Positions 11,188 through 38,532 of a DNA stretch of 38,695 nucleotides are shown here, piece after piece. This DNA comes from a virus. Both the position numbers and the translations under genes were made by a program. Location of the stretch: the IMG/VR virus record IMGVR_UViG_3300032050_007236, positions 1-38,695 of that record; one strand, written 5' to 3'. Every line of letters starts with the position of its first letter. Position 1 is the stretch's first letter. The notes under the pieces were generated by a model that saw only the letters and a program-made list of their open reading frames with translations, did no database searches and was not told where the DNA came from.

Positions 11188-11358
11188 ATGCGAAAAGACA
11201 AACACAAATATACTACCATTCAAGTTAGTAAAGAAATAAATAAGCATATACGTGAATTCTGTAAAACGAATTTCGTAAATGCAGGACCATTGACAGAACG
11301 TCTGTGGTCTAATTATATTTCTTCTAGTGTGAGTGGTAGTATTTCTTTACAGGGTTAA
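11188..11358 (+). CDS. Small ribbon-helix-helix-like protein
   Basis: A 56-residue frame from ATG 11188 to TAA 11356-11358. The sequence YTTIQVSKEINKHIREFCKT then AGPLTERLWSNYI reads as one strand followed by two helices, the layout of Arc/MetJ-type ribbon-helix-helix DNA-binding proteins. The basic start (MRKDKHK) fits DNA binding. AAGGG lies 11-15 bases upstream of the ATG. The gene comes just before the sugar cluster and could regulate it; this is inference. Confidence 0.55.
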   Translation: MRKDKHKYTTIQVSKEINKHIREFCKTNFVNAGPLTERLWSNYISSSVSGSISLQG

Positions 11359-11362
11359 TATT

Positions 11363-12757: not shown

Positions 12758-13770
12758 GCTACGAATTCGAGGTCGATATGCAACTAGGAATTGTAAAATC
12801 TAGGAAAACCGCACTAGTTACTGGTATCAACGGACAAGATGGTTCCTATATGGCTGACTTCCTACTTGACAAAGGATATAAAGTCTATGGAATGGAACGA
12901 CGAGCCTCTGTCAAGAATAGAGAGAACACAAAGCATCTTATTGATAATCCAAACTTTGAGTTTATTATTGGTGACCTTGCTGACCAGAACTCACTCCTTC
13001 GGTGTTTGAAAACTGCAAATCCATCAGAAGTCTATAACTTCGCAGCACAATCGTTCGTCGGTGAGAGTTGGAACACGCCAGAACAAACCAGTGATATTAC
13101 TGGATTGGGTGTTCTTCGGATGTTAGAAGCAATCCGTGAATATGGGGAACCTATTAAGTTTTACCAAGCATCTTCGTCTGAAATGTTTGGTCGTATGGTG
13201 GAGAATCCATCAAAAGAATCCACACCATTCTATCCACGTTCCCCATATGGCGTAGCGAAGCTGTACGGGCACTGGATTACTAAGAACTATCGTGAAAGTT
13301 ATGGAATGTTCAATGTCTCTGGTATCTTATTCAATCACGAAAGTGAACGCCGTGGGATTGAGTTTGTTACTCGTAAGATTACTGATGGTGTTGCTCGTAT
13401 TGCATTAGGATTCCAAGATACAATTGAATTAGGTAATCTTGATGCAGGTCGTGATTGGGGATATGCACCTGATTATGTAGAAGCCGCATGGTTGATGATG
13501 CAACAAGATACACCTGATGATTATGTTATTGCAACTGGTGTTACTAAGACTATTAAACATTTCTTACAAGCAGCATTTTATCAAGTTAATATCTTGGATT
13601 GGGAAAAGTATGTAGTGGTCAACCCCAAATTCTTCCGTCCGGCGGAAGTCGAGGTTCTTCGTGGTGATGCAACAAAGGCAAAGGAAGTATTAGGTTGGAC
13701 ACCGAAGACGCCGTTTGAGCAGTGGGTAGGAAAGATGGTTCACAACGATTTTACAAAGTTACAAGGATAA
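12754..13770 (+). CDS. gmd: GDP-mannose 4,6-dehydratase
   Basis: A 338-residue extended SDR enzyme that turns GDP-mannose into GDP-4-keto-6-deoxymannose, the precursor of GDP-fucose and GDP-rhamnose. The NADP loop TGINGQDG (23-30) is typical of Gmd, as are NFAAQSFVGESW, SSSEMFG (catalytic S/E), YxxxK (Y165, K169) and FNHESERRG. The start is ATG 12754 with GGAG upstream, overlapping the previous stop. An ATG at 12718 is within the GT4 gene. No GDP-fucose synthase is obvious; the SDR at 19584 or the host may finish the pathway. Confidence 0.93.
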   Translation: MSYEFEVDMQLGIVKSRKTALVTGINGQDGSYMADFLLDKGYKVYGMERRASVKNRENTKHLIDNPNFEFIIGDLADQNSLLRCLKTANPSEVYNFAAQSFVGESWNTPEQTSDITGLGVLRMLEAIREYGEPIKFYQASSSEMFGRMVENPSKESTPFYPRSPYGVAKLYGHWITKNYRESYGMFNVSGILFNHESERRGIEFVTRKITDGVARIALGFQDTIELGNLDAGRDWGYAPDYVEAAWLMMQQDTPDDYVIATGVTKTIKHFLQAAFYQVNILDWEKYVVVNPKFFRPAEVEVLRGDATKAKEVLGWTPKTPFEQWVGKMVHNDFTKLQG

Positions 13771-13773
13771 TAT

Positions 13774-15108
13774 ATGAATATAGAAACTAAACCGTTATGT
13801 GTTGTTCGGGCACCATGCGCTACTCGTTCTGGATATGGAGATATGAGCCGTGACATCATTCGTCATATTATTGAATATGATAAGTTTGATGTTAAGGTTG
13901 TATCCGTAAATTGGGGTGAAACTCCAATGAACGCTTTGGATGAAAACAATCCAAAAGACAAGATGATATTGGACCGAATACTCACTGGTCCTCTTACGAG
14001 ACAACCAGATTTGTTTGTGACTATCACAATCCCATCAGAGTTTGAAACGATTGGAAAGTATAATATTGGTATTACAGCTGGAATTGAAACTAGTATCGCA
14101 TCTGCTCAATGGGTCGATGCATGTAACAGAATGGATGCGGTTTTCACTATCTCAGAACATTCAAAGAATGTATTCTTAGCATCTCAGTTTGGTCGTAGAG
14201 GCCCTAACGGAGAAGATTTGGGTACCCTTAAGCTTGAGAAGCCAGTCGAAGTATTACACAATTGCATTGACCAAGCTATCTTTAAGAAGCTCGAATACGA
14301 ATCTGATGTTCAAAAGACGGTCAAAGAGGTATTAGCAGAAGTTCCAGAGAAGTTTTGCTATCTTTTTGTTGGTCACTGGTTGCGTGGAGACTTTGGTGAA
14401 GATAGAAAGAATGTTGGTTTGTTGGTTCGTATATTCCTTGAAACCTTTAAGCAAACAAAGAGTTCTCCACCAGCATTAATTCTAAAGACCAGCGGTGGCA
14501 ATTTCTCCATCTTGGATAAACGAGAAATTCTAAAGAAAATAAATGATATTCGTAATACTGTGCAATTGGAAGCAGGTCAAACCATGCCAAATATTTATGT
14601 ATTACATGGTGAGTTGACCGATAGTGAAATGAATTCATTATATAATCACCCAAAGATTAAAGCACACGTTTCGTTTACAAAGGGTGAAGGGTTTGGACGG
14701 CCATTACTTGAAGCATCGGTTAGTGGGAAGCCAGTGATTGCCTCGGGTTGGTCTGGTCATATGGATTTCTTGAACCCAGAAGAAGCTGTATTGGTCGGTG
14801 GTGAGTTGGCACAGATACATCCAAGTTCTGTTTGGGATAATATTCTTATCAAGGAATCTTCCTGGTTCCGACCAGATATTCAACAGGCAGCCAATGCACT
14901 TGCTGGTGTATTTATGGATTATGAAACCTTCCGTAAGAGGTCTGCAAAGCTGGGTAAGGAGAATTTTAAGAAGTTCTCCTATAATGCAATACAACAAAGA
15001 ACGTGGGAACTTCTTGACAAGTATGTACCAGAGTTTCCAAAACAGGTTCCTATTAAGTTACCTACTTTAAAGAAGGTTGATTTACCTAAACTTAAAAAGG
15101 TTGAATAA
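13774..15108 (+). CDS. GT4-family glycosyltransferase
   Basis: A 444-residue GT-B enzyme. The first lobe begins VVRAPCATRSGYGDMSRDI, an acceptor-side glycine loop. The second lobe carries LFVGHWLRGDFGEDRKNVGLL, a donor-phosphate loop longer than usual, and SFTKGEGFGRPLLEASVSGKPVIAS with the catalytic E-x7-E pair. It ends in a short Pro/Leu/Lys repeat (LPTLKKVDLPKLKKVE), which may be an interaction tail. Donor unknown. AAGGA precedes the start; the stop overlaps the next ATG. Confidence 0.88.
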   Translation: MNIETKPLCVVRAPCATRSGYGDMSRDIIRHIIEYDKFDVKVVSVNWGETPMNALDENNPKDKMILDRILTGPLTRQPDLFVTITIPSEFETIGKYNIGITAGIETSIASAQWVDACNRMDAVFTISEHSKNVFLASQFGRRGPNGEDLGTLKLEKPVEVLHNCIDQAIFKKLEYESDVQKTVKEVLAEVPEKFCYLFVGHWLRGDFGEDRKNVGLLVRIFLETFKQTKSSPPALILKTSGGNFSILDKREILKKINDIRNTVQLEAGQTMPNIYVLHGELTDSEMNSLYNHPKIKAHVSFTKGEGFGRPLLEASVSGKPVIASGWSGHMDFLNPEEAVLVGGELAQIHPSSVWDNILIKESSWFRPDIQQAANALAGVFMDYETFRKRSAKLGKENFKKFSYNAIQQRTWELLDKYVPEFPKQVPIKLPTLKKVDLPKLKKVE

Positions 15109-15509
15109 TGCCTCTACGTAGTGAACGCCGATTTATTAGCCTAAGTAATGTAAAGTCTGGTATGATGATTCAGTTTAGCTATCAGAAAAAATCTGGTGGT
15201 GCTGGGTCGTATACTGTGTTGGTTATAGACCCGAATCGTAAAAGTGAACGGGCAACAGAACCACAGTTACATGGATTTGTAATTGAAGAACTTACCGATG
15301 CACAATTGATTGAATTTTTCGCTTCGTTCGGCACAAGTATTAATATGGACTATGACGACAGACGGGCAAGTGTAGTGGAGAATTTAAATACAGACGAAGC
15401 TTATAAAACATTTTCAACATCACCGTATGTAAAGGGCCGTTCATATCGTACATTTAATCTGAGTGGAATGTCGCAGGTTCGTCAAATCTTACTTGGCTCA
15501 GTAGACTAG
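15108..15509 (+). CDS. Conserved-looking phage protein of unknown function
   Basis: 133 residues, beta-rich in the first half (GMMIQFSYQKKSGGAGSYTVLVIDPN) followed by LHGFVIEELTDAQLIEFF. Small proteins that begin in this way and contain an LHGF/LHGI stretch occur in T4-like phages, but I cannot name the family. It sits inside the sugar cluster without any sugar-enzyme motif. Confidence 0.65.
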   Translation: MPLRSERRFISLSNVKSGMMIQFSYQKKSGGAGSYTVLVIDPNRKSERATEPQLHGFVIEELTDAQLIEFFASFGTSINMDYDDRRASVVENLNTDEAYKTFSTSPYVKGRSYRTFNLSGMSQVRQILLGSVD

Positions 15510-15517
15510 GAGTGAAT

Positions 15518-15796
15518 ATGTCAGAAGAAATTTGTCCACAAGAAGATTGTGTCCCTAAAGAGGACTTACCAAGTGCTATGGAAATGGCAAAGAATCTAAT
15601 GCGTGACGGTACCAAAATTATCAAGAACGCAGTAGAAGGAAACAAGACTCTCGTTGAACAGTTTGTGAGAGACAACAGATGGTCTATTTGCAACGAATGT
15701 CCACGACTACAGAACGATAGATGCTTAGAATGTGGATGCTTTATGAAGGTTAAGGTAGCATTCCAAACTTCAGTATGTCCGTTAGGAAAGTGGTGA
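15518..15796 (+). CDS. Cys-rich phage protein (DUF6171-like)
   Basis: A 92-residue protein starting at ATG 15518, which has AGGAG at 15508-15512; the GTG at 15512 overlaps that site and is rejected. The C-terminal half has two Cys pairs plus one more: ICNECPRL, CLECGCFMKVK, VCPLGKW. This C-x2-C...C-x2-C-x-C...C-P-x-x-K-W pattern is shared by small uncharacterised phage proteins and probably binds zinc. Function unknown. Confidence 0.7.
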   Translation: MSEEICPQEDCVPKEDLPSAMEMAKNLMRDGTKIIKNAVEGNKTLVEQFVRDNRWSICNECPRLQNDRCLECGCFMKVKVAFQTSVCPLGKW

Positions 15797-15797
15797 T

Positions 15798-16499
15798 ATG
15801 CCACCAAAAATAGTAAACTTACCGTATGGAGTATTTTCTGTTTTAGAGAATGCACATCACGACCATGTTCAACGAACTATCGCTTCTGGAAATATATGGG
15901 AACCTGAGATAATCAGTTTGTGTGAGAAATATGTAATTCCAGGTTCAACCGTAGTCGATATTGGGGCAAATTTAGGTGCATTCGCTGTTAGATTATCTCA
16001 GTTAGTGGGAAAGTCTGGAAAGGTTTTTTCTTTTGAGCCCCAAAGAATAATACATCAACAACTTTGTTGCAATATATTTTTAAACGATATCAGAAATGTA
16101 TTTACTTATCAAATGGCTCTTGCTGAAAAAGAAAAGACTGTACATTTGACTCCAATAAATTATGATAATGGTGCTCCTGGAGAAGTAAGAATACACGGAA
16201 ATGAAGGCGAAGAAGTTATTTGCAAACCACTTGACTTTTACAACCTATCGAATGTATCTTTAATAAAGATTGATGCCGAACGGTATGAACCATTTATATT
16301 TGACGGCGCACAGAATACTATAAAAAACAATCGTCCGGTGATATTGTTCGAACTAACAACATTACCATTACCAGATTATCCTACAAATTTTATTTATAAT
16401 ATGTTACATGATATGAATTATAATGTATATCTGGTATCAGAAAAGTCGGGCGATTATTGTGCAATTCCTATAGAAAAAGATACAATACCAAATGTCTAA
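15798..16499 (+). CDS. FkbM-family SAM methyltransferase
   Basis: 233 residues. The SAM-binding motif VVDIGANLGAFAVRLSQ (52-68) is followed by VFSFEPQ (76-82) and the FkbM-type late motif IKIDAERYEPFIFDGA. In most FkbM proteins this reads K-x-D-x-E-G-x-E; here Arg-Tyr replaces Gly-x, so activity may be altered. Likely O-methylates a sugar. It overlaps the next gene by eight bases in a run of glycosyltransferases. Confidence 0.85.
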   Translation: MPPKIVNLPYGVFSVLENAHHDHVQRTIASGNIWEPEIISLCEKYVIPGSTVVDIGANLGAFAVRLSQLVGKSGKVFSFEPQRIIHQQLCCNIFLNDIRNVFTYQMALAEKEKTVHLTPINYDNGAPGEVRIHGNEGEEVICKPLDFYNLSNVSLIKIDAERYEPFIFDGAQNTIKNNRPVILFELTTLPLPDYPTNFIYNMLHDMNYNVYLVSEKSGDYCAIPIEKDTIPNV

Positions 16500-17292
16500 C
16501 AAACCAAATCTATTAATAGGGGCAATAAGTGCAAACTATTCCCCAGCAGATATTGAAGGGTGGGTCACAACATCCAAGTGGGATAACTGCGAACAAGTAT
16601 TACTTGTATACAATGTTACATCAAAAAACAACCCACTGTTGACCTATTTAAAACAGCACAATGTAACGGTATTACAGCCTGATTTTGATTTCTGGGGAAA
16701 TCCTGAATCAGAATTTCAGCATCATACTGGACTTTGTAATTTAGAAACTTCTTACAACTTAATTCATAATCTCAGATTTTTTCATATTTGGAATTATCTG
16801 CAAAATCAAAATTATGAAAAGGTTTTGATTACAGATGTACGGGATGTATATTTTAATCATAATCCATTTGAACGCATTCCCGCAGATAAACTAATAGCTA
16901 CGAGTGAAGAAGTTCTCTATAAAAATCATCAATGGAACCAAACACATCTTCATTATAATTTAGGTGTGATTGGTATGTTTGTGTTACTGGATGAACCAGT
17001 ATACAATGTAGGCGTGTTTGGTGGTTCCGCGGAACTGGTCAAGAACATTTCGTCGGACATTTATTTACTGTCTATTGGTAAGCACAAAGTGGCAGACCAA
17101 ACTTCGTTTAATTATTTGATTCAAACCAAATACAAACATATGACACGGTTCAGCGGTATCAATGATAAGTTTGCCGTACACTTGCATGTGGTCAACGAAG
17201 GACTAGTGCCGTTTGATTATAAGGTAGCAAATGAGTATGCGATTATTCATCAATACGATAGAATCACTAATTGGAATAGTTTAATTATATGA
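16492..17292 (+). CDS. GT-A-type glycosyltransferase-like protein
   Basis: 266 residues with the metal-binding segment KVLITDVRDVYFNHNPF (about 105-121), the D-x-x-D pattern of nucleotide-diphospho-sugar transferases. A late LGVIGMF/YNVGVFGGSAELV region holds the acceptor-side strand. The family is weakly defined. It overlaps both neighbours (ATG inside the FkbM gene end, stop over the next ATG), consistent with coordinated production. Confidence 0.72.
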   Translation: MSNKPNLLIGAISANYSPADIEGWVTTSKWDNCEQVLLVYNVTSKNNPLLTYLKQHNVTVLQPDFDFWGNPESEFQHHTGLCNLETSYNLIHNLRFFHIWNYLQNQNYEKVLITDVRDVYFNHNPFERIPADKLIATSEEVLYKNHQWNQTHLHYNLGVIGMFVLLDEPVYNVGVFGGSAELVKNISSDIYLLSIGKHKVADQTSFNYLIQTKYKHMTRFSGINDKFAVHLHVVNEGLVPFDYKVANEYAIIHQYDRITNWNSLII

Positions 17293-17972
17293 AAATATTA
17301 TATAGAATTTCTGATGGGTCGTACAAGAAAGAAAGATTTCAACATGCCACCAAACAACATTGTGTTGAAAACTTCTTGACACATTTCCCAACAGAAGAAG
17401 TGACCATTTATGCAGATAACGTTCGAGATGAAACACTCGAATGGATTACCGCATTAGGGTGCGAAACTATCCGTACAAATGGTGGAAGTAGCGCTGCAGG
17501 ATTCCGTATCGTGATGGATGCCGCATTACAACTAGCCGATGATGAATCTGTATACTTTGTGGAAGATGACTACTTTCATTTACCAAACTCCAGAACAATA
17601 TTGCTGGAAGGATTAGAGAGGTCACATTATGTTTCCTTATATGACCATAGAGACAAATATATTCCAGCCAGTATGGGTGGTAATCCTTTTATTGATGACG
17701 ATGCAGCAGAACTTACTAAAGTCTTTGTTACTAATTCAGTTCATTGGAAACTTACTAACAGTACAACAATGACCTTTGCAACAAAGGTATCTACATTGAA
17801 GGAAGATGCTGAGATTTGGAAGAAGTATACCTCAGGCACTTATCCACAAGACTTCAAGTGTTTCCTTGAATTACGGGAAAATGGTCGTACGCTTGCTACC
17901 CCACTTCCAGGCTACAGTACCCATTGTGAACCAATGTGGGCATCACCTTTAATTGATTGGGAATCCGTATGA
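17289..17972 (+). CDS. GT-A-type glycosyltransferase-like protein
   Basis: 227 residues. The stretch SVYFVEDDYFHLPNS (about 86-100) is a clear acidic metal site after a strand, as in GT-A enzymes. It is preceded by GGSSAAGFRIVMDAAL, a loop and helix that could hold the uridine or guanosine. No Shine-Dalgarno site is visible at its ATG, which overlaps the previous stop. Donor and acceptor unknown. Confidence 0.7.
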   Translation: MKILYRISDGSYKKERFQHATKQHCVENFLTHFPTEEVTIYADNVRDETLEWITALGCETIRTNGGSSAAGFRIVMDAALQLADDESVYFVEDDYFHLPNSRTILLEGLERSHYVSLYDHRDKYIPASMGGNPFIDDDAAELTKVFVTNSVHWKLTNSTTMTFATKVSTLKEDAEIWKKYTSGTYPQDFKCFLELRENGRTLATPLPGYSTHCEPMWASPLIDWESV

Positions 17973-18700
17973 AGTATTCTATTATTATTCCTTATCGCAA
18001 CAGAGAAGAGCACTTACAAGTATTATTACCTACCTTACTTGAAAGGTTTTCTAATGAGTCATTTGAAATTATTGTATCAGAGCAAAATGATATCGACAAT
18101 TTCAGAATTGCGTGTGTTCAGAACATAGCCTATAATTACGCAAAAGGTGACATATTAATATTTCACCAAGTAGACTATATTCCAAGTGACGATGTTTCAT
18201 ATGAAGTTACGGATGTGCCGGTTCTTCCAGCTCGTCGTGGAATATTTTTAGGCAAGGACCATCAGTCACTAAGAGAGTTCAATGACATTCCTGCCGGATA
18301 TCGTGAATGGTCGCGGGAAATAGACCCACGATTTTATGGTGGAGTTATTTGTATGTCCCGTTCCCACTTTGAAACTATTAATGGATTTAACCCACTGTAT
18401 CGTGGATGGGGCAATGAGGACGAAGATTTGCGTGAACGATTTGTGTGGGCTGGATTACCCGTACACCGCAACGAGGTAGGTACCTTCTACTGTCTACATC
18501 ACGAAGATAACGGGGATATGCAAAATAAAGAACAAGAAATACAGAAAGACTTCTTTGAAGGACGTAAATATCTAATAGAGCAGGCGTATGAACAACGACA
18601 CATCGGGTATAAGAACCTTACCGCTGATGTACAGGAATCACAAACTGATATCCCGAATGTTCGTTGGTTGAAAAGTACTACCTATAAGGTGAGTGTATGA
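17969..18700 (+). CDS. GT7-like (beta-1,4-galactosyltransferase type) transferase
   Basis: 244 residues from ATG 17969, which overlaps the previous TGA; an ATG at 17957 is less likely. The start SIIIPYRNREEHLQ, the metal segment HQVDY (66-70) and the hallmark GWGNEDEDLRER (146-157) with a following Cys-x-His-His (CLHHED) match GT7 galactosyl- or N-acetylgalactosaminyl-transferases. Such enzymes use UDP-Gal or UDP-GalNAc and Mn2+. Confidence 0.85.
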   Translation: MKYSIIIPYRNREEHLQVLLPTLLERFSNESFEIIVSEQNDIDNFRIACVQNIAYNYAKGDILIFHQVDYIPSDDVSYEVTDVPVLPARRGIFLGKDHQSLREFNDIPAGYREWSREIDPRFYGGVICMSRSHFETINGFNPLYRGWGNEDEDLRERFVWAGLPVHRNEVGTFYCLHHEDNGDMQNKEQEIQKDFFEGRKYLIEQAYEQRHIGYKNLTADVQESQTDIPNVRWLKSTTYKVSV

Positions 18701-19587
18701 AGTCCTGTTTGATAGTATGTCACGGATATTTTGGTGACCACTTATTTGCAAATAGTATCGCTGAACATCTGATTGAAGAAGGTCAATTTGATGCGGTCGA
18801 TTATGTTATAGGGTTTCCACAGGTACTTCCATTCTTTGTACGAAACCCGTATGTACGAAATGTATTTATTGATGGAGTGGGCCCATCACCAAGAATCCCA
18901 TCAAATGCGAATACTTATAATAAGGTGTTCCAACTAAGACCTATAACCAGAGTGATACCACCTGCCGTTGAAGTACAAGTCGCTTGCGGAGTTAACAACC
19001 CATCACCGAGATTTCATATAAACACAGATGAAGGAATAGATAAGTTTGTCCGTGATTATTATGGTGAAAAAACTGGATTGGTTGTTGGACTAATGAATGG
19101 GTGGAAAGAACGTTCGTTCCTCTTTACCAAAGAACAATACGACAGAGGAATTGATGTACCAAACCTTGGTTATGGTGGGGCACACAGAAACACTGATTGG
19201 ATTATAGAGCAACTCGAATTAAAGTTTAATACTATACGAGTGGGAACTGAAAAGAATGTTAATCAGTTTGTGGTGCAGCACGAAGGACCGTCATTAGACC
19301 TCACCGCGTCTATCCTAAAGTATTGTGATGTATTTGTTGGTGCGGAAGGTGGGTTGGCCAATCTGGCGTACGCTGTAGGAACGGATACCATCCTTACCTC
19401 CGACTTTGTACATCAATTGTATGGACCAAACGGAGTACTACAGAAGTTACCAGAACCAAAGTTGGGTCCAATATATTATGGTGGTAAGAATACGCACATA
19501 AACTTAGACCCATATCTTACCGATGAAGATGTGTTTTTACGAATAGTAGAATGTTTAGACAACAAGAGAATGGAGATTGAACAATGA
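18697..19587 (+). CDS. GT9/heptosyltransferase-like GT-B protein
   Basis: 296 residues. The N-terminus CLIVCHGYFGDHLFANSIAEHL has the G-x-x-G-D loop of ADP-heptose transferases. The C-terminal CDVFVGAEGGLANLAYAVGT corresponds to the donor-binding D-S-G-x-x-H-L-A segment with Glu-Gly-Gly in place of Ser-Gly. Ligand unknown. AAGGTG precedes the start and the ATGA overlap couples it to the GT7-like gene. Confidence 0.7.
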   Translation: MKSCLIVCHGYFGDHLFANSIAEHLIEEGQFDAVDYVIGFPQVLPFFVRNPYVRNVFIDGVGPSPRIPSNANTYNKVFQLRPITRVIPPAVEVQVACGVNNPSPRFHINTDEGIDKFVRDYYGEKTGLVVGLMNGWKERSFLFTKEQYDRGIDVPNLGYGGAHRNTDWIIEQLELKFNTIRVGTEKNVNQFVVQHEGPSLDLTASILKYCDVFVGAEGGLANLAYAVGTDTILTSDFVHQLYGPNGVLQKLPEPKLGPIYYGGKNTHINLDPYLTDEDVFLRIVECLDNKRMEIEQ

Positions 19588-20618
19588 AAGTGTTAATTAC
19601 AGGGGTAGCTGGACTATTAGGGTCACGCCTTGCAGATTGGATTATTTACAACAAGCCCGGCACTGAGGTCATCGGGATTGATGATTTTAGTGGTGGGTAC
19701 GAAAGTAACATACATCCAAATGTAACATTTTATAAAATGGATTTGGGTAAAGAGTCAGTTGACGCAATTTTTGAACGACACCAACCAGACATTGTATATC
19801 ACTTCGCTGCCTATGCAGCAGAAGCACTGTCTCCGTTCATTCGTCAGTTTAATTATACTAATAATTTAGTTAGCACTGCGGGTATCATTAATGCCTGTAT
19901 CAAATACTCTGTAAAGCGGTTGGTATTTACTTCCTCTATGGCGGTGTATGGAGATAATATCCCACCATTTGATGAAACAATGCCACGCAGTCCAGTTGAC
20001 CCGTATGGTGTTGCAAAGATGGGTTGTGAAATTGATATTCAGATTGCAGGCGAACAGCATGGGTTAGATTGGTGTATCATCCGTCCTCACAATGTATATG
20101 GTGCAAAACAAAACATTTGGGATTCCTATCGTAATGTGCTAGGTATCTGGATGTATAAGCATCTAACTGGACAACCGCTTACTATCTTTGGTGACGGTAC
20201 ACAAATGCGTGCCTTCAGTGATATGACCGATTGTCTCCAACCGCTTTGGAACGCAGGTACCAGTTTCGTCGCATCAAAAGAAATCATTAATCTTGGTGGA
20301 ATACACGAAACCAGTATCAACGAAGCAGCAGAAACATTAATTAAGGTTATGGGTGGTGGAGAAATTGTATATCTTCCACCCCGCCACGAAGTCAAATACG
20401 CATATCCAACATGGCAAAAGTCGGTAGACCTTCTTGGGTTTGAACACAGAACCAGTCTATTTGATGGGTTGACAAAGATGTGGAATTGGGTTAAACTACA
20501 ACCTAGTAGACCACGACAAGTATGGGGAACATACGAATTAGAAAAAGGTATTTATCCATATTGGCAAAAGGAAACATTGATGGCGGAAGCTCCATCTACT
20601 CACCTATTAGAAAAGTAA
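19584..20618 (+). CDS. NAD-dependent sugar-nucleotide epimerase/dehydratase
   Basis: A 344-residue extended SDR protein, GalE-like in layout. TGVAGLLGSRLADWI (6-20) is the NAD loop. HFAAYAAEALSP, TSSMAVYG, YGVAK (Tyr/Lys catalytic pair) and RPHNVYG follow in order. It could epimerise UDP-glucose/galactose or convert the Gmd product; the motifs alone do not decide. GGAG precedes the ATG, which overlaps the previous stop. Confidence 0.88.
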   Translation: MKVLITGVAGLLGSRLADWIIYNKPGTEVIGIDDFSGGYESNIHPNVTFYKMDLGKESVDAIFERHQPDIVYHFAAYAAEALSPFIRQFNYTNNLVSTAGIINACIKYSVKRLVFTSSMAVYGDNIPPFDETMPRSPVDPYGVAKMGCEIDIQIAGEQHGLDWCIIRPHNVYGAKQNIWDSYRNVLGIWMYKHLTGQPLTIFGDGTQMRAFSDMTDCLQPLWNAGTSFVASKEIINLGGIHETSINEAAETLIKVMGGGEIVYLPPRHEVKYAYPTWQKSVDLLGFEHRTSLFDGLTKMWNWVKLQPSRPRQVWGTYELEKGIYPYWQKETLMAEAPSTHLLEK

Positions 20619-20625
20619 TTATAAT

Positions 20626-21432
20626 ATGATAACGGTTATTGTCCCAAGTTATAGGAATCCAAAGTATCTTGACTTGTGTTTAAAATCTATTACAGAAAAT
20701 AAGGTATTAGATTCCACACAAGTTATTGCGGTTATTGATGGGTATGTAGCAGAAAACCAAGAGGTGATGAGTAAGTATCCTACTGTCGGGTTTCTTCCAT
20801 TTGAAGATAATATGGGAATGCAATATGCCATCAACGCTGGCGTGATGCAAGCAGAGACAGAATACGTATTTGTAGTAAATGATGATAACGTATTCCCTAC
20901 GAGATGGGACGAGCGGCTGACGGACTCTATCAAAAAAATTAAGGATGAACAGTTTGTTATTACCGTCAACCAAGTAGAACCGACTGGGCCTGGGATGTTT
21001 AATTTTCCGGTAGTGGACCTGGGACAAAGCGTTGATACCTTCTTGTATGACCAGTTTTTGGATAATGAAACAAAATTAGCAAGCCAACAAATCACCAGTG
21101 ATGGTCATATTTTTCCATTCGTAATGAAGAAAAAGCATTTTATGGCTGTGGGTGGTTTCGATACATTCTATAATAGCCCTAACATCTGTGATTGGGATTT
21201 CTTTTTAAAGTTAGAGCTACTGGACTTTGCGTTTCCACGAATACACTCGTTGCATTTATATCACTTTGGTTCAGTATCTACAAAGAAAAATGCAGAGAGT
21301 GCAACATTCCGTGAAAAGGAACAAATAGCGATGGAACAATATATGTGGAAGTGGGGTACGCCACCATATAATCAAGCCAACATAAACAGTAAAGTTCCGC
21401 CAACTAAACAATTTCGAGGGTTTCGTGTATGA
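20626..21432 (+). CDS. GT2-family glycosyltransferase
   Basis: 268 residues. The GT2 opening ITVIVPSYRNPKYLDLCLKSI is followed by VIAVIDGY, the helix with DNMGMQYAINAG and the metal motif VVNDDNVFPTRWDERL (83-98). The acceptor-side VGGFDTFYNSPNICDWDFFLKL has the expected acidic ED/WD-type position. No Shine-Dalgarno site is evident. It ends the continuous sugar cluster, overlapping the next gene. Confidence 0.87.
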   Translation: MITVIVPSYRNPKYLDLCLKSITENKVLDSTQVIAVIDGYVAENQEVMSKYPTVGFLPFEDNMGMQYAINAGVMQAETEYVFVVNDDNVFPTRWDERLTDSIKKIKDEQFVITVNQVEPTGPGMFNFPVVDLGQSVDTFLYDQFLDNETKLASQQITSDGHIFPFVMKKKHFMAVGGFDTFYNSPNICDWDFFLKLELLDFAFPRIHSLHLYHFGSVSTKKNAESATFREKEQIAMEQYMWKWGTPPYNQANINSKVPPTKQFRGFRV

Positions 21433-26644: not shown

Positions 26645-28735
26645 TTATAGTATCTTTTCTAGTTCTTTGATGACCATATCTGCGGTAATCTCACGGGAAC
26701 ATTCGAATTGTCTCAGAGTTCCTTTATGATCTGGGCACCAGTTCCAATCGCCTGGGTCAAACTTATGTCGGTTCCAACATCCAGAACATTTTCCTTTTGG
26801 TGCAGATATTCTGATACAATCCTGCATCTCATTGAATGGTTCGGTGAACCCACTTATCATCACGGTTGGTGTTCCCACCGCCCAACTTACCCAGCTCAAT
26901 CCACTACTGATACCTATGAATGCCTTTGACCTCTTTAATTCTTCTATAACTTTATCAATAGGTGACCTTGGAAATTGTTCTACCCCAGCAGGATTTCGGT
27001 TTCCCATATATCCATCTTCTTCTTGGGACAGTAGTTTTACGGTATAACCTCGTTCTTTCAACCAGTTTACTACTTCTTGCCACCCAAATGGATTATTCCA
27101 GTATTTAGATTGGGCAGTAGAGTGTGTGGCTATGGTCACTAACTTGGAATCTGTATTATCTATGTCGGGTTGTTTTACTTTTGGTTGTATTTCTTTGTAT
27201 TCTAATCCCAATATATCTGATGCTATTTGCTGTAAAGAAACACTTATCGGGTTGGTTGGGTGTTTATCGCTGTCAAAAGTATTACCTGTATGAAATAATC
27301 CAATTACGTACATAGCCATAAGATTATGAGCTGTCTCACCTGGGGTGACAAATGTAATTTCTGGATATTCTGATATGAACAAGTCATTCCAGAAGGTAGA
27401 GCATATTACTTCGCAATTATGTTTCTTTCTAAATTCATCTACATAAGGAATCCAGGCAAAAGTATCTCCTAAAGATTTAGAATCCAAAGCAATATATACC
27501 CGATTTCCTTTTAATTCTAAATTATATGCCATTGACTGTCCCGTATTCTTTTCGGTAATTTCTACGCGCCAATCAACATAATATTTTATATTTGGTTTTG
27601 CCCAAGAATTACGAGTCAACTCGGTGTTATAAACCACAGTATCGGTTTTCTTATCAATAAACTTTACGGAATATTTTATATCTTGTCCGCCAAGGATTTC
27701 AGCAAACATTCCATTTATACAATTGAAATTAAACTTTCTCACCTGTGACTTCTTTAGTATTGGTGTATTCTTATAGTGATTTATTAATTGTTTTTTCATA
27801 GAAGGTAACTCATTTGTTGTATAGATAGATACTAACTCTTTTGTTCTGTTGTACCAATCTAATAGTTCTGCATGTTTTCTGGCAGAAGTCGTATATGCCG
27901 TGTAATTCTCTATAACACGCTGTATCCCCTGCACAACCGCACCTACTTCCGCCTCTACAATTTCCATACCATCTAAACTATTGTTCTGCTCAAATGTTCC
28001 CACCACTGGTAATCCGCAAGACAAAGCTTCTACCAATGTTAAGTTTGGATGTCCTGCTTCCAACTGAGAAGGATGTAGAAATATACTATGGTTACGATAT
28101 ACTGTCAATAGTTCTTCTTCTGACAAGTCATATAGAATAGTTAGTTTATCGTATGTTGGTGGATTCTTCTCAAAATAATTTTTATTGTTAGATGGACCAG
28201 CGATTGTGATTGGGAGTCCCAATCTCTGTGCTGCTTCTATAGCAATACCAAATCCTTTACGGTCAATTGATTGGTCATACGCATACCCATTATTAGCCAC
28301 ACATAATAATTTATGAATAGGTCTAGTATCTGGTCCAGAGAAATATAAAGTGTCTACTCCGTGAGAGAAATACTCTGGGATTCCCTCAAAATAATCTACA
28401 AGGTATTTTGCAGGAACAAACGATTTTATAGAACCCCGCATGGCCTGTAAGTTTTCTTTATATACTGGAGAATCTTTTCCATATAGATACGCATGGTGGT
28501 CGTGAAATGTAAAATAGTAGGGTATACCAACCTCTTGTAGTTCTAATGCTAAATTTGCAATGTGAACATGTACAACATCATGCTCCCCGTGTTTTACTTC
28601 ACTTCTATATAATATACGAGATTCGTGATTTAGATTTAATAAGTTCTTATGGGTTTCCCAAATAATCTTTTCTACCGCACCCCACCCATTCGGAGGAATA
28701 GGTATAAGTCCAGGCGTTACATTTACTATTCGCAT
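26645..28735 (-). CDS. GT4 fused to TibC/Aah-type O-heptosyltransferase (BAHT)
   Basis: A 696-residue two-enzyme protein. Residues 1-310 form a GT4 glycosyltransferase: GWGAVEKIIWETHK (17-30), the donor motif LHPSQLEAGHPNLTLVEALSCG (220-241) with the E-x7-E pair. Residues 334-696 match bacterial autotransporter heptosyltransferases: YVDWRVEI, RVYIALDSKSLGD (412-424), WNNPFGWQEV (546-555), FIGISSGLSWVSWA (606-619), ISGFTEP, and the iron-finger cysteines C650, C653, C667, C679 (CSGCW, WCPDHKG, FEC). These enzymes attach sugars to Ser in strand-loop-strand repeats of adhesins. It is the last gene of the minus-strand virion operon, close to a Ser/Thr-Gly-rich fibre, its likely acceptor. Confidence 0.88.
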   Translation of the reverse strand: MRIVNVTPGLIPIPPNGWGAVEKIIWETHKNLLNLNHESRILYRSEVKHGEHDVVHVHIANLALELQEVGIPYYFTFHDHHAYLYGKDSPVYKENLQAMRGSIKSFVPAKYLVDYFEGIPEYFSHGVDTLYFSGPDTRPIHKLLCVANNGYAYDQSIDRKGFGIAIEAAQRLGLPITIAGPSNNKNYFEKNPPTYDKLTILYDLSEEELLTVYRNHSIFLHPSQLEAGHPNLTLVEALSCGLPVVGTFEQNNSLDGMEIVEAEVGAVVQGIQRVIENYTAYTTSARKHAELLDWYNRTKELVSIYTTNELPSMKKQLINHYKNTPILKKSQVRKFNFNCINGMFAEILGGQDIKYSVKFIDKKTDTVVYNTELTRNSWAKPNIKYYVDWRVEITEKNTGQSMAYNLELKGNRVYIALDSKSLGDTFAWIPYVDEFRKKHNCEVICSTFWNDLFISEYPEITFVTPGETAHNLMAMYVIGLFHTGNTFDSDKHPTNPISVSLQQIASDILGLEYKEIQPKVKQPDIDNTDSKLVTIATHSTAQSKYWNNPFGWQEVVNWLKERGYTVKLLSQEEDGYMGNRNPAGVEQFPRSPIDKVIEELKRSKAFIGISSGLSWVSWAVGTPTVMISGFTEPFNEMQDCIRISAPKGKCSGCWNRHKFDPGDWNWCPDHKGTLRQFECSREITADMVIKELEKIL

Positions 28736-29553
28736 AGTAGGTAGTCCAATACTTCGTTTGTGGATTTTTCTTCCTTAAACCCGTGATATAATAGAACTTT
28801 ACTAGAGTCATGTATATACTCCCAATCAGCTCCAGTTTCGTCTAAATTCTTTCCAAGTCGCGTGTCAGCTACAGCAGACTCTTCAGTTAATTTAACAGTA
28901 TTGATGTCGTGAGTGTTTACGAATATAAATCCTAAACTCTCAGTACCTCCGCGTTTCCAAATACAAACATTAAATGAAGTTTCATCGTGAAATGGGTAAT
29001 ACCACTTGCGTCTAGAAATTAGATACTCATTCTTACACATAGAAGTGTATTCTTCAAAGAACTCTTGACAGTTTCTATTGAATACATAGAAGCACGACCA
29101 CTGGTATCGCACAGACTTATCTTCTACATTAAAATACTTCATTAATAGCTTTTCATTGTACTCTTGGTAGTTACTTCCATCGGCGTCACGTGACCAAATA
29201 AACGGTAATTCGTGTGGTCCGAACACTCCCAACGCATAGTTGTGATTATGTTTTAGTTTATGAAAGTCCATCCGATGAGAGAAGAGTATGTCTGTATCTG
29301 TGAAGATGAAGTCTTGCTCATCTGGAAACATTTTCATTACATCTAACGACAATTCTGCCTTGTAATAATGGAATGTAGGATAGTTTCTTTCTGGAATCGG
29401 TACTTTTATTAAGTTTTTAGTTTCAAAGGAACTAATGAATCCTATCGTAAAATACACTACTTTAATATCATCGGTCAGATGTGGTTTCATTGACTTGATA
29501 CAAGTAATTGCCTGATGTTCGCAAACTTTATTTGTATATAAAAATATAACCAT
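28726..29553 (-). CDS. GT-A-type glycosyltransferase
   Basis: 275 residues with a clear metal-binding motif DFIFTDTDILF (D86-x-D88) after a strand-rich start MVIFLYTNKVCEHQAITCI. The YQWSCFYVFN and HDETSFNVCIW stretches resemble acceptor and base-positioning regions of GT8-like enzymes. Its start is one base after the stop of the upstream gene, and its end overlaps the next gene by ten bases. Donor unknown. Confidence 0.8.
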   Translation of the reverse strand: MVIFLYTNKVCEHQAITCIKSMKPHLTDDIKVVYFTIGFISSFETKNLIKVPIPERNYPTFHYYKAELSLDVMKMFPDEQDFIFTDTDILFSHRMDFHKLKHNHNYALGVFGPHELPFIWSRDADGSNYQEYNEKLLMKYFNVEDKSVRYQWSCFYVFNRNCQEFFEEYTSMCKNEYLISRRKWYYPFHDETSFNVCIWKRGGTESLGFIFVNTHDINTVKLTEESAVADTRLGKNLDETGADWEYIHDSSKVLLYHGFKEEKSTNEVLDYLLCE

Positions 29554-33428: not shown

Positions 33429-36212
33429 CTAGTCCGTCCCTAATTTCTTCTTCAATTCATCAATTTGTTTTTGTTGTTCTTTGATTGCTTCAATCAGTAA
33501 TCCAACTATATTGCCATAGGCAACGGAATATTGGTCAATATCTTTTGCATAACTAACCACTTCTGGAATCACTTTCAATGTTTCTTGTGCGATTACACCG
33601 ATACCTCGTTTGTCTTTATCCTTCCAATCAAAGTATACACCACGAAGTTCCATTACTTTCTTTAATGCATCTTGAATAGTTACAATATTTTTCTTTGCTC
33701 GTTCATCAGAATACGCGGTGATATTGTCGGTTCCATAGATTTCGCCGTTCACGTGAAGTGGGTACGATGGAGCACCGCCGATACCCAATCGACTATTGGC
33801 ACTATCCCATCGTAGATTTGCGTAGCTGGTTAACGTAGTTGCTCCAGAGAAAACTGCTACACGGTCTGCCGTACCACCACTAATCGTTCCTGCGCCGGAA
33901 GTACCAGCGGTCCCCGATACTCCCGATGTGCCGGATGACCCGCTGGTTCCGTTGGCACCATTTGCTCCAGAAGTACCAGAACTGCCACTCGTACCATTTG
34001 CTCCAGATGTTCCTGAGCTACCCGATGACCCAGGCGCACCATTGTTACCAGATGTTCCTGATGAGCCACTTGATCCTGGTGCGCCATTGTTACCAGAGGT
34101 ACCAGAGGTACCAGAACTGCCGGATGAACCAGGCGCTCCATTATTTCCTGAGGTACCTGAACTACCTGTTCCTCCACTTGTACCGGATGTTCCTCCACTA
34201 CCAGACACACCTGGGAGTCCCATAGCACCATCTCTACCAGATGAACCCGATGAACCCGAGGTGCCTGATGTTCCTGTAGAACCACTACTTCCAGATGTTC
34301 CCGATGTACCAGAACTTCCGCTTGTTCCTGCCGTTCCACTACTTCCTGCGGTTCCCGATGTTCCCGCACTTCCCGATGTGCCTGATGTTCCTGCCGAACC
34401 ACTGGTGCCAGTTGTTCCAGAACTTCCGCTTGTTCCCGTTGTTCCAGAACTTCCACTTGTGCCCGTAGTTCCTGAACTACCCGAAGTGCCGCTAGTACCA
34501 CTACTTCCGCTTGTTCCATTTTGACCAGATGTGCCTGAGCTTCCATTTTGCCCTGATGTACCGGCACTTCCGCTTGTTCCTGTTGAACCTGAACTGCCTG
34601 AAGTTCCCGTGCTACCGCTTGAGCCAGATGTTCCACTTGTTCCTGAACTACCGTTTATGCCAGATGTTCCAGAACTTCCGCCGCCACCTGTTGGACCCGG
34701 TAATCCCATTGCCCCATCGCGGCCAGAACTGCCAGAAGTACCTGATGTTCCACTTGTGCCCGCGGACCCAGATGTACCAGCAGTGCCACTTGTTCCAGAA
34801 CTACCAGAAGTTCCAGTTGAGCCTGAACTACCAGCTGTGCCAGAAGACCCAGATGAACCTGAGGTACCTTGGACTCCAGATGTTCCAGAACTACCATCAA
34901 AATAGTTAACGTTTTTTATCGGTGTGTATCCAGATGAACCCGCAGTGCCAGAACTACCGGCGGTCCCCGATGTTCCACTGGTTCCTGCTGTACCGGATGT
35001 ACCCACAGGTAGTTGTGCAACAATTAATAAAACATTTTCATCATTTGAGAATGAATATGTTGATTGAACTAATACTATTGGGAATGTCCAGTACGCATTG
35101 GGTCCAGTTTCTACACCAGTCCCCACCGTCCATTTTTGAAAATTACTTGAATTGTCCGCATCTTGTATTACTATCAACGACCCTGATGGGATGATAGCTA
35201 AGAAAATATCTATATCTTCATTATTTTGGTCTAAATGGCTTACGACAAGTTCCGTAGCTGATGCTTGTGTAGCGTTGTTCCAGAGGATATGACCACTACC
35301 AGGATTACCTGATGTTGCATTTGTGTTTGCTTGATATGGGAACAAGTCATTGGACTGTCCGTCTTTACCACTAGTTCCAGCTGTACCAGATGTGCCCCCA
35401 CTACCCGACACGCCGGGTAACCCCATAGCACCATCACGACCTGAGCTGCCTGATGACCCCGATGTTCCTGCGCTACCAGAAGTACCCGAGCTACCAGAGG
35501 TACCTGAAGTTCCTGAACTACCTCCAGTACCAGATGACCCCGAAGTACCAGAACTTCCAGTAGTTCCAGAAGTACCAGAAGTACCATTTATGCCAGAGGA
35601 GCCTGACGAGCCAGCGGTACCAGCGGTTCCACCACCGCCGACTGGGCCTGGAAGCCCCATTGCGCCGTCACGGCCGGAACTACCCGATGTTCCTGTACTT
35701 CCAGAAGTACCAGATGTACCATCTCGTCCAGAAGAACCCGATGTACCCGGATTACCTTGATTACCTTGTATACCAGGAAGACCCATTGCTCCATCTCTTC
35801 CACTTGAGCCTGAGGTTCCTGCCGTTCCTGCCGTTCCAGATGTACCATCTGCTCCAGATGTACCAGAACTACCACCGCCACCTACTGGACCTGGAAGCCC
35901 CATAGCTCCATCTCTACCAGAACTACCTGATGAACCTGATGAACCTGGTGCTCCGTTTGCGCCACTAGTACCGCTGGTACCAAATGTTTCTCCACTAGTT
36001 CCACTACTACCCGCAGAAGAACCGCCGCCTACACCAGCGATTAGATATCCACCGGGTTTATTGTCGCCGGCGTGTAATCGAATAACTCCAAATCCACTTG
36101 CTGTTGTGGATTCTATATCCGCAGTAAGAACGCCAGGCAATCCAACATACGCAGCGTTAGACCCTGACGTTCCTCGTAATATCTGAAATTCTGTGATATT
36201 ATTATTTGGCAT
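33429..36212 (-). CDS. Collagen-like tail fibre with S74 chaperone domain
   Basis: 927 residues. The N-terminal domain (1-60: EFQILRGTSGSNAAYVGLPG then RLHAGDNKPGGYL) resembles the particle-binding start of phage fibres. Gly-X-Y repeats dominated by GTS, GSS and GTA occupy about 62-286 and 404-772, including six copies of GRDGAMGLPG. A globular insert sits at about 287-403, and a short break (YTPIKNVNYFDG) at 429-440. The end (773-927) has a neck then an S74 endosialidase-type self-cleaving chaperone: AYSDERAKKNI with Ser835-Asp836 at the cut site, GVIAQE and a final coiled coil. AGGAA precedes the ATG. The repeats offer hundreds of Ser/Thr for O-glycosylation. Confidence 0.9.
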   Translation of the reverse strand: MPNNNITEFQILRGTSGSNAAYVGLPGVLTADIESTTASGFGVIRLHAGDNKPGGYLIAGVGGGSSAGSSGTSGETFGTSGTSGANGAPGSSGSSGSSGRDGAMGLPGPVGGGGSSGTSGADGTSGTAGTAGTSGSSGRDGAMGLPGIQGNQGNPGTSGSSGRDGTSGTSGSTGTSGSSGRDGAMGLPGPVGGGGTAGTAGSSGSSGINGTSGTSGTTGSSGTSGSSGTGGSSGTSGTSGSSGTSGSAGTSGSSGSSGRDGAMGLPGVSGSGGTSGTAGTSGKDGQSNDLFPYQANTNATSGNPGSGHILWNNATQASATELVVSHLDQNNEDIDIFLAIIPSGSLIVIQDADNSSNFQKWTVGTGVETGPNAYWTFPIVLVQSTYSFSNDENVLLIVAQLPVGTSGTAGTSGTSGTAGSSGTAGSSGYTPIKNVNYFDGSSGTSGVQGTSGSSGSSGTAGSSGSTGTSGSSGTSGTAGTSGSAGTSGTSGTSGSSGRDGAMGLPGPTGGGGSSGTSGINGSSGTSGTSGSSGSTGTSGSSGSTGTSGSAGTSGQNGSSGTSGQNGTSGSSGTSGTSGSSGTTGTSGSSGTTGTSGSSGTTGTSGSAGTSGTSGSAGTSGTAGSSGTAGTSGSSGTSGTSGSSGSTGTSGTSGSSGSSGRDGAMGLPGVSGSGGTSGTSGGTGSSGTSGNNGAPGSSGSSGTSGTSGNNGAPGSSGSSGTSGNNGAPGSSGSSGTSGANGTSGSSGTSGANGANGTSGSSGTSGVSGTAGTSGAGTISGGTADRVAVFSGATTLTSYANLRWDSANSRLGIGGAPSYPLHVNGEIYGTDNITAYSDERAKKNIVTIQDALKKVMELRGVYFDWKDKDKRGIGVIAQETLKVIPEVVSYAKDIDQYSVAYGNIVGLLIEAIKEQQKQIDELKKKLGTD
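33897..35003 (-). repeat. Gly-Ser/Thr collagen-like repeat block 2
   Basis: Encodes residues 404-772 of the fibre: three-residue Gly repeats, mostly GTS/GSS/GTA, ending with several copies of GNNGAPGSSGSSGTSG. Codons vary between copies, so the protein repeat is better conserved than the DNA. One short break occurs at the FDG segment. Confidence 0.85.
35355..36029 (-). repeat. Gly-Ser/Thr collagen-like repeat block 1
   Basis: Encodes residues 62-286 of the fibre. Four of the six GRDGAMGLPG units lie here, separated by GTS/GSS runs. The block is split from block 2 by a non-repeat insert (35004-35354). Confidence 0.85.
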
Positions 36213-36387: not shown

Positions 36388-38532
36388 ATGACCAAGCACA
36401 AAGCACACAGTTCCTATTGGGTTGACGATACTTCCGTCTTTGATTTCGATACGGAGGATGTCAATAAGGATGAGCTTGACGTTTCTGCGGGTATTGACCG
36501 TATCGTGAAGCTTGCTACGATTCGTCGAGCTGTTGCCAACTTCGTTCGTATTCTCACGAATGATTCTTCTATTCATGTTAAGTATTCGTCAGGTCGGGAT
36601 TCATACACCGATGGTAAGACGGTGGTGATTTCGGCTGACCACAATACTTCAAACTTTGACCCGATGGTTGGTCTTGCTTTGCATGAAGGGTCGCACTGTC
36701 TCCTTTCTGATTTCGGTTTCCTTCGTGCGATTAATCAACATCACGAAGTGTTCTACTCTGCGCTTCATCCCGACCTTCGGAAGTTGGTGAAGGTGAAGGC
36801 GGTTCGTGACGGTAATTATGATGTTTATGACAACATGCGTGAGAATCAGGCTATTCTCAATACACTTCGTCGGTATATTCAGCAGTTGATGAATATCATT
36901 GAGGACCGCCGTATTGATTCGTATGTGTATCGTTCGGCTCCTGGCTATCGTCCGTACTATGATGCGATGTATAAGAAGTATTTCTTTAATTCTGATGTGG
37001 AAAAGAATCTCCAGTTCAATCCCGACTGGCGTAAGCCGACTGTGGAGAATTATGTGAATTGGCTTCTTATGATTTTCTCTCCGCACTTTGACAAGAAGGC
37101 GTTGCCGGGGCTGTCCAAGATGGTAGATATGATTGACCTCCAGAACATTCGTCGTTTTGATGAGAAGCATATGCCGGATTCTATCCGATGGAAGAAGTCT
37201 GGTGCGGTTGTATCCAATCCTGTTGCTGATAATGAACTTGTTGTTTACCATTATGACCAGTTCCCGCTTCTGTGGAAGACTGCGAACGAGCTGATGGTGG
37301 AGATTCTCAAGCGCGCCAAGTTCTATGCTGACCAAGAGGATGAGAACAATTCTGGCGATGATGGAATGGATGGTATTCCTATTGAGATGGAAGATGATGG
37401 CAAGGAGCTGGAGGGTGAGGGGATGCCGAATTATGACCTTCCACAGAAGAAGTTTAATGCGGGTAGGGGTAAGAAGGCAATGGAGAAGATGAAGGACATT
37501 CAGAATCAGACTGCTCGTAAGAAGAAAATTAAGAAGAATGAGCAGACGCAGATTGAGTCTATGGAATCTGCGGCGGCTGAAATGTCGGAGAATTCTGACC
37601 CGATTTATGGAAAGGTTCCGTGCCTCGTTACGAAGAAGCTCACGAAGGAAATTATGAAGTCGGATTGGTTCCCATTTGCGAATGTGTGGGCGTTTAGTGG
37701 TGATGGTACGTGGCGCGACTCTGACCGTAACCAGACCTATCGTGGATTCCTTGCTGGGATTCGTATGGGACAGGTTCTCGCTCATAAGTTGCAGGTTCGT
37801 AACGAGCCGCAGATTACACACTTTACTCGTCAAGAGCATGGGAAGATTGACCGCCGTATCCTCTCGCAGTTGGGAATGGATATTGAGAATGTGTTCAAGC
37901 GGACTACGGTTGATTCGTACAATCCGGCTCTTCTCTATCTGTCGGTGGATGCCTCTGGTTCGATGTGGGGTGGCAAGTGGGAGCGTGTGATGACGGTGAT
38001 GACGGCTCTTGCCTTCGCCGCTGATAAGATTCGTAATCTTGATGTGGTGATTTCGCTCCGTGGAAATGTCGGTAGTGGGATTCCGACTGTGGCGGTTGTG
38101 TATGATAGCCGTGTAGATACGTTCGTCAAGGCGAAGGCACTGTTCCCATACCTTGCGTCTAACGGTTCTACTCCTGAGGGATTGTGCTACCACAGCACGA
38201 TTGAGTTGATGCAGGAGTGTGTCAAGACGCACACGGTATACTTCATCAACTTCTCTGATGGTGAGCCGGGGTGCTCGTTCAGCCACAACGGAAAGCGGTT
38301 TGACTATGGTGGTGAGCAGGCGATGAAGCAGACCAAGAATACGGTTCGTATCATGCGTGAGATGGGGATTCGTATTATGAGTTACTTCATTAGTGACTAT
38401 CATTCTCACAATGAGTCCTACACGACGAAGTTCTTCCGCAATATGTATGGGCAAGAGGCGGAGTTCGTGGATGTAAAGAATGTGGTGAATGTTCTTAAGA
38501 CCTTGAACAAGCTCCTACTGATTAAGGAATAA
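36388..38532 (+). CDS. CobT-like protein: HExxH metalloprotease-like domain + VWA
   Basis: 714 residues. An N-terminal zinc-peptidase-like motif, LALHEGSHCLLSD (H99, E100, H103), is followed by NIIEDRRID with a candidate third ligand (E172). Residues 330-410 are an acidic then basic low-complexity linker. A C-terminal von Willebrand A domain has an intact MIDAS: DASGS (D521, S523, S525), T595 in GSTPEG and D624 in FSDGEP. This matches CobT/DUF2201-type VWA proteins that work with a MoxR/CobS-type AAA+ ATPase; such pairs occur in T4-like phages. No ATPase is in the window. Codon choice is GC-richer than in the sugar genes. Confidence 0.85.
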   Translation: MTKHKAHSSYWVDDTSVFDFDTEDVNKDELDVSAGIDRIVKLATIRRAVANFVRILTNDSSIHVKYSSGRDSYTDGKTVVISADHNTSNFDPMVGLALHEGSHCLLSDFGFLRAINQHHEVFYSALHPDLRKLVKVKAVRDGNYDVYDNMRENQAILNTLRRYIQQLMNIIEDRRIDSYVYRSAPGYRPYYDAMYKKYFFNSDVEKNLQFNPDWRKPTVENYVNWLLMIFSPHFDKKALPGLSKMVDMIDLQNIRRFDEKHMPDSIRWKKSGAVVSNPVADNELVVYHYDQFPLLWKTANELMVEILKRAKFYADQEDENNSGDDGMDGIPIEMEDDGKELEGEGMPNYDLPQKKFNAGRGKKAMEKMKDIQNQTARKKKIKKNEQTQIESMESAAAEMSENSDPIYGKVPCLVTKKLTKEIMKSDWFPFANVWAFSGDGTWRDSDRNQTYRGFLAGIRMGQVLAHKLQVRNEPQITHFTRQEHGKIDRRILSQLGMDIENVFKRTTVDSYNPALLYLSVDASGSMWGGKWERVMTVMTALAFAADKIRNLDVVISLRGNVGSGIPTVAVVYDSRVDTFVKAKALFPYLASNGSTPEGLCYHSTIELMQECVKTHTVYFINFSDGEPGCSFSHNGKRFDYGGEQAMKQTKNTVRIMREMGIRIMSYFISDYHSHNESYTTKFFRNMYGQEAEFVDVKNVVNVLKTLNKLLLIKE

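Follow-up and report, generated by a model that had tools for sequence, protein, structure and literature searches.

The locus considered here raises two questions: what would a TibC-like BAHT domain, joined to a GT4 glycosyltransferase, do in a phage, and on which acceptor would it act? The window, i.e. the whole stretch of DNA that was analyzed, is a virus contig of 38,695 bases bearing phage-type genes (an S74 tail fibre, a Mom-like protein and an exonuclease). The gene for the GT4-BAHT protein lies in a same-strand gene run, or operon, that is headed by a collagen-like S74 tail fibre (Table 1), whose repeats comprise 195 G-x-y-G triplets, including 64 GTS and 47 GSS, and span positions from about 33894 to 36173. 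The 275-aa protein encoded directly upstream of the fusion gene returned no match in Pfam and PDB searches; it is kept beside other GT4-BAHT fusions (L003/L004, L411) and, judging from its DTD motif, is probably a GT-A-type glycosyltransferase. The 658-aa GT4-FkbM protein is a probable enzyme of glycan extension and O-methylation.

Table 1. Features of the fusion gene and of the gene run that contains it
Feature	Coordinates	Strand	Basis
GT4-BAHT fusion gene, 696 aa, ATG start	26645..28735 (stop codon included)	minus	ORF and family profiles
BAHT (TibC-like) domain, residues 334-696	26648..27736	minus	TIGR04414, 4rap, AlphaFold, Foldseek
Iron-finger motif, residues 645-680 (C650, C653, C667, C679)	26696..26803	minus	
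D424 codon, equivalent to TibC catalytic base D110	27464..27466	minus	Alignment
GT4 domain, residues 1-330	27746..28735	minus	Pfam, alignment of fusions, Foldseek
275-aa protein, directly upstream of the fusion gene	28726..29553	minus	DTD motif
GT4 + FkbM methyltransferase fusion, 658 aa	29555..31531	minus	Pfam and NCBIfam
417-aa protein, between fibre and glycosyltransferase genes, kept in L002	31564..32817	minus	
177-aa protein, kept in L002	32892..33425	minus	
Tail fibre, 927 aa, collagen-like, C-terminal S74 intramolecular chaperone	33429..36212	minus	Pfam Collagen and Peptidase_S74

The plus strand of the window carries a second glycan cassette (11333-21432), separate from the GT4-BAHT operon, with genes for two GT4-like glycosyltransferases, two nucleotide-sugar epimerases, an FkbM-like methyltransferase and GT2/galactosyltransferase-like proteins; a 444-aa glycosyltransferase of this cassette has relatives in Microcystis phage Mel-JY01 and Flavobacterium phage immuto. 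The same strand encodes a Mom-like DNA modification protein (4085-4930; phrog_1384, E 3e-52), a 439-aa protein with a weak homing-endonuclease-like match (1511-2830) and a 714-aa protein, kept in L002, with weak PHROG matches, one of them named cobalamin biosynthesis (36388-38532).

In a search against NCBIfam, residues 350-695 of the fusion protein matched TIGR04414, the Aah/TibC heptosyltransferase family, with 294.3 bits against a cut-off of 200 (E = 1.2e-87), and the best phmmer match in the PDB was TibC (4rap, E = 6.6e-57; 4rap and 4rb4 about 1e-56). TibC (4rap) was also recovered when an AlphaFold model was searched with Foldseek (TMt 0.84 over ~373 columns, E 3.7e-32); this model was computed without templates, while TibC may have been in the training data, and has a mean pLDDT of 79, with the BAHT part mostly at 80-98, and a pTM of 0.56, so that the orientation of the domains is unreliable. 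As expected of a family member, the predicted BAHT part shows the TibC fold with an N-terminal beta barrel, a beta-rich portion (residues 334-405) being followed by a GT-B core. An earlier note, made from the letters of this DNA, had assigned a BAHT domain, and neither of the two outcomes that would have spoken against this, no match to the BAHT family and a predicted fold unlike TibC, was seen in these searches. The note had further placed four iron-finger cysteines at residues 650, 653, 667 and 679; they lie at exactly these positions, align column for column with C339, C342, C358 and C370 of TibC and are invariant in an alignment of 39 phage and 68 bacterial homologues.

The window enzyme also keeps the equivalents of TibC T226 (T540), K230 (K544), W305 (W615) and F368 (F677). 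The counterparts of D110, T226, K230 and W305, which were among the residues tested in TibC, D110 as catalytic base and the other three in donor binding (eLife 2014, PMC4358343), are invariant in the 39 phage sequences. S610 occupies the position of TibC P300 and AAH S294, which sets the choice between D,D and L,D heptose in these two enzymes (PMC4358343). The thumb residues F265/V266, part of the hydrophobic beta-hairpin associated with the TibC dodecamer, correspond to Y576/M577 in one alignment and are gapped in another; the TibC dodecamer is a ring with inward-facing active sites (PMC4358343).

One donor-site residue has been exchanged. TibC R286 is replaced by V596 in the alignment of the window enzyme to TibC. 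Among the 39 non-redundant phage sequences, 38 have a residue other than arginine at this position, as do 14 of the 68 bacterial sequences, the latter nearly all in the phage-containing branch described below. R286 contacts adenine in TibC, and an R286A exchange abolishes or largely diminishes activity (PMC4358343); the nucleotide or the sugar used by the window enzyme may therefore differ. It is thus a serious, if tentative, possibility that the acceptor is the one we propose below but the sugar is other than heptose, with the lost arginine marking a different nucleotide-sugar. Consistent with such a change, some phages with a BAHT of this branch are without HldE-like genes, and the plus-strand glycan cassette of the window includes two nucleotide-sugar epimerases; however, the remaining donor-site residues (D110, T226, K230 and W305) are kept, and HldE-type genes flank many sister BAHTs, albeit with scores below the curated cut-offs.

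Standalone phage BAHT genes are immediately followed by these HldE-like genes for a kinase and an adenylyltransferase (clusters 4 and 7, with 54 and 42 loci, respectively). The heptose-1-P adenylyltransferase-like gene scored 95.6 bits with rfaE_dom_II versus 51.6 bits with the glycerol-3-P cytidylyltransferase profile, and the heptose-7-P kinase-like gene scored 91.4 bits with rfaE_dom_I, its best match found, both below the respective curated cut-offs. HldE-like genes occurred in 17 of the 25 records searched, with none in the window, the L002 contig or the complete Mel-JY01 genome. Among the records searched, GmhA (PF13580, SIS isomerase-like) was detected only in LR756504.1, ~27 kb from the BAHT gene; given this distribution and the lack of HldE-like genes in the window, a full phage-encoded ADP-heptose pathway was rejected. 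The donor is the least certain point of our interpretation, as the HldE-like neighbours favour ADP-heptose while the lost arginine speaks against it, and we regard heptose as a moderately probable first sugar.

A quick tree of the 39 phage and 68 bacterial sequences together with TibC is split by a long branch with an SH-aLRT of 100. On one side lies a classical branch with TibC and enzymes of Burkholderia type and from Lentisphaeria, Desulfovibrio and Bacillota; on the other side lies a second branch, of unreliable inner order, which unites all phage enzymes with those of Methylococcaceae, several gammaproteobacterial MAGs and a few others. Four of the bacterial records in the second branch (L085, L091, L098 and L118) could be contigs of phages that were assigned to bacterial bins. 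In one bacterial class surveyed, true BAHTs are rare, with one of 274 genomes, the centre genome itself, scoring above the TIGR04414 cut-off; weaker matches in this survey look like GT9 relatives. The autotransporter target repeat TIGR04415 was present in 12 of 12 classical genomes tested and in none of the 32 second-branch records searched, among which the window is a fragment, and an autotransporter was rejected as the acceptor on this basis. Because the enzyme lacks the R286 equivalent and its record the autotransporter partner, we file it, though homologous to BAHTs and scoring above the family cut-off, as a putative distinct branch that would work like a BAHT, rather than as an autotransporter heptosyltransferase.

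A different partner recurs beside the second-branch enzymes. Next to the genes of their bacterial members lie genes for short repeat proteins (GTSGTSGSSG...) that are secreted or lipoprotein-like, a pairing that we first noticed by reading neighbouring genes and afterwards tested in three ways. In association counts based on partly redundant loci, in which related phages are not independent, a stricter triplet pattern was found at 15 of 20 second-branch bacterial loci but at 0 of 60 classical loci (Fisher 2e-12); a looser G-[S/T]-[S/T/A] array pattern, sought within ~6 kb, was found at 17 of 20 and 0 of 60 of these loci, and, applied alike, at one of 78 control viral loci. For comparison, the background frequency of five-triplet arrays in the Methylobacter class is low, at 3 of 274 genomes. 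Conversely, when viral contigs were picked solely by a four-triplet DNA pattern, TIGR04414 was detected in 19 of 50 contigs with triplets versus 0 of 49 controls (p = 5e-7), and in 7 of 18 versus 0 of 21 contigs of 40-100 kb (p 0.002). Stretches fetched around the 19 BAHTs recovered in this manner contained a triplet-rich ORF in 12 cases, often of 1000-2600 aa.

Triplet arrays accompany the GT4-BAHT fusion at all seven loci, two of which (L003 and L004) are near-identical. In Mel-JY01, an isolated phage, triplet repeats are likewise encoded, and the gene for a triplet-rich protein lies upstream of that for the BAHT. The 735-kb phage LR756501.1 (L082) holds ~780 four-triplet G-S/T-S/T matches, almost all on one strand, against none to the reversed pattern, and the same kind of search found none in LR756504.1, where a BAHT is present. 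In phages with a standalone BAHT, the arrays often lie tens of kb from the BAHT gene. From this association, we consider it likely that the triplet array is the acceptor, which in the window would probably be the Gly-Ser/Thr triplet (collagen-like) fibre rather than an autotransporter.

The pairing also bears on two other readings of the locus. In cyanophages, pelagiphages and jumbo phages, clusters of glycosyltransferase and rfaE genes are usually interpreted as modifying the host surface (PMC7824862, PMC7029224). The present cassette might likewise alter host LPS or capsule to block superinfection, the more so as a Pfam GT9 match reflects a distant relationship between BAHTs and the LPS heptosyltransferases of that family, and the LPS heptose donor is made by HldE. 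We judge this unlikely, since BAHTs form a protein-modifying branch apart from GT9 WaaC, since the second-branch bacterial enzymes adjoin secreted triplet-repeat proteins and since the pairing of BAHTs with triplets would be left unexplained. Assignment of the window enzyme itself as an LPS heptosyltransferase (GT9, WaaC/WaaF) was rejected, as it scored only 35.5 bits with heptsyl_trn_I (TIGR02193; cut-off 185.3 bits) and TIGR04414 was its best equivalog. Alternatively, the substrate of the BAHT might be a different protein of the virion, with the triplet fibre a mere neighbour in a tail/host-recognition region; phage glycosyltransferases and tail fibres generally cluster (PMC7029224), and the conserved 417- and 177-aa proteins sit between the fibre and the enzymes. 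This reading is improbable to a similar degree, as the same pairing is seen in bacterial contigs, where the BAHT gene adjoins one for a short triplet protein of secreted or lipoprotein-like type.

Why, then, are the two glycosyltransferases joined? Full-length homologues with the same domain order are encoded by L002-L005 and by the huge phage LR756501.1 (43% identity), and a search of public phages retrieved a 1227-aa GT4...BAHT protein from Mel-JY01 and a standalone, divergent BAHT from LR756504.1 (L084). That the fusion arose through faulty sequencing or assembly, or that the gene is degraded, has nothing in its favour beyond the metagenomic origin of the contig and is effectively ruled out by these independent homologues of the same architecture (43-65% identity), with intact frames and conserved catalytic residues. 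At least 220 stretches in IMG/VR encode relatives of the fusion protein. Most of the others specify a standalone BAHT of ~384 aa within a conserved block of T4-like structural genes, close to those for terminase and portal; a GT4-methyltransferase fusion gene precedes the BAHT gene, and an S74 fibre of ~2400 aa is encoded upstream. Elsewhere, the BAHT is joined to other GT4s or built into longer multi-enzyme chains (L405, L410, L412, L420). In two cassettes (L407, L416), the window-type GT4 is a free-standing gene next to the BAHT gene. Shorter BAHT-like ORFs (~294 aa) occur in L417, there adjacent to a full BAHT fusion, and in L419; their match to the family profile begins late, so that they seem to be without the N-terminal barrel. 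One family of small ORFs (cluster 0; about 90-129 aa) is represented repeatedly around the fibre-BAHT-HldE block in L036, L010 and their sisters.

The GT4 assignment itself rests on Pfam matches above cut-off in residues 159-276 (Glyco_trans_1_4, PF13692, 31.5 bits versus 27; PF00534, 29.7 bits versus 26.4) and on Foldseek matches of this part of the model to PimA/MshA-type GT-B enzymes, which ranked after TibC. A LEAGHPNLT..EA motif common to all four aligned fusions resembles the E-x7-E signature with a spacing longer than canonical; with this altered spacing, the domain is likely, though not certain, to be catalytically active. Together with the phage-type genes and the same-order homologues, these matches confirm the observation of a GT4-BAHT fusion in a phage, on which the earlier note was built. 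The note also suggested that the GT4 domain could extend the first sugar, a plausible idea to which the L407 and L416 cassettes, with this GT4 encoded by a gene of its own, lend support; fusion here and separation elsewhere is the pattern expected of two enzymes acting successively on one product, and there is a fair chance that the fused domain has this role. The description of classical BAHTs in the note, as bacterial proteins of a single domain, agrees with the classical branch, but in phages, fusions of BAHT domains are common. The earlier interpretation is thus partly supported, and is incomplete in that the fusion is one of many and standalone phage BAHTs are widespread.

Taken together, we favour, with reasonable though limited confidence, a phage cassette that O-glycosylates its own collagen-like tail fibre, with the GT4-BAHT protein as one of its enzymes. 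In the cytoplasm of the infected cell, before assembly, the BAHT domain would add a first sugar, most likely heptose from ADP-heptose, to Ser/Thr residues of the G-[S/T]-[S/T] triplets of the fibre. The fused GT4, the GT4-FkbM protein and the probable GT-A protein would then elongate and O-methylate the glycan, and through the fusion, the first and second transfers would take place on one assembly. Such a coat might stiffen the fibre, shield it or tune adsorption. Glycosylated Thr/Ser residues in triplets could stabilize proline-poor triple helices, as in collagens with glycosylated Thr.

More broadly, and with the odds only slightly in its favour, the whole branch may have exchanged autotransporter beta-helices for collagen-type Gly-Thr/Ser-Ser triplets as its acceptors and represent a prokaryotic and viral collagen glycosyltransferase, with which phages, among them LR756501.1 with its ~780 pattern matches, would build densely sugar-coated collagen-like fibres, some using phage-made ADP-heptose or another NDP-heptose. 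In a literature search that lay mostly outside subscription journals, we found no paper linking phages with BAHTs or BAHTs with collagen-like triplets. If our proposal holds, it would provide a concrete enzyme-acceptor pair for the usually unexplained glycosyltransferase/rfaE genes of aquatic phages, with the fibre itself rather than the host envelope as the target. The same pair would account for the long collagen-like stretches of GTS/GSS repeats, likewise usually unexplained, in phage fibres and in surface proteins of bacteria, and might supply small systems of enzyme and substrate with which collagen-like polymers could be O-glycosylated.

Compared with known systems, the window enzyme resembles TibC and AAH in its predicted fold, its four cysteines, its conserved Asp, Lys, Thr and Trp residues and a score above the curated cut-off, but differs from them in the fusion to GT4, the replacement of R286, the separate branch in the tree and the presence of a triplet-repeat partner in place of the autotransporter target repeat. 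Its N-terminal domain is similar in fold and sequence to PimA/MshA-type GT4s and to cyanophage GT4s of phrog_33732, whereas the window GT4 is covalently joined to a BAHT domain. Triplets of the type proposed as the phage acceptor, GTS and GSS, are known from the Burkholderia collagen-like protein Bucl3 (PMC4565658); the respective paper makes no mention of glycosylation, whereas here a glycosyltransferase is genetically linked to the triplets. Finally, virion proteins are glycosylated in mycobacteriophages (Freeman 2023, as cited in PMC12619734), as we propose for the window phage; as far as the citing paper relates, the sites there are the C-termini of capsid and tail tube proteins, whereas here a BAHT enzyme would modify the triplets of a collagen-like fibre.
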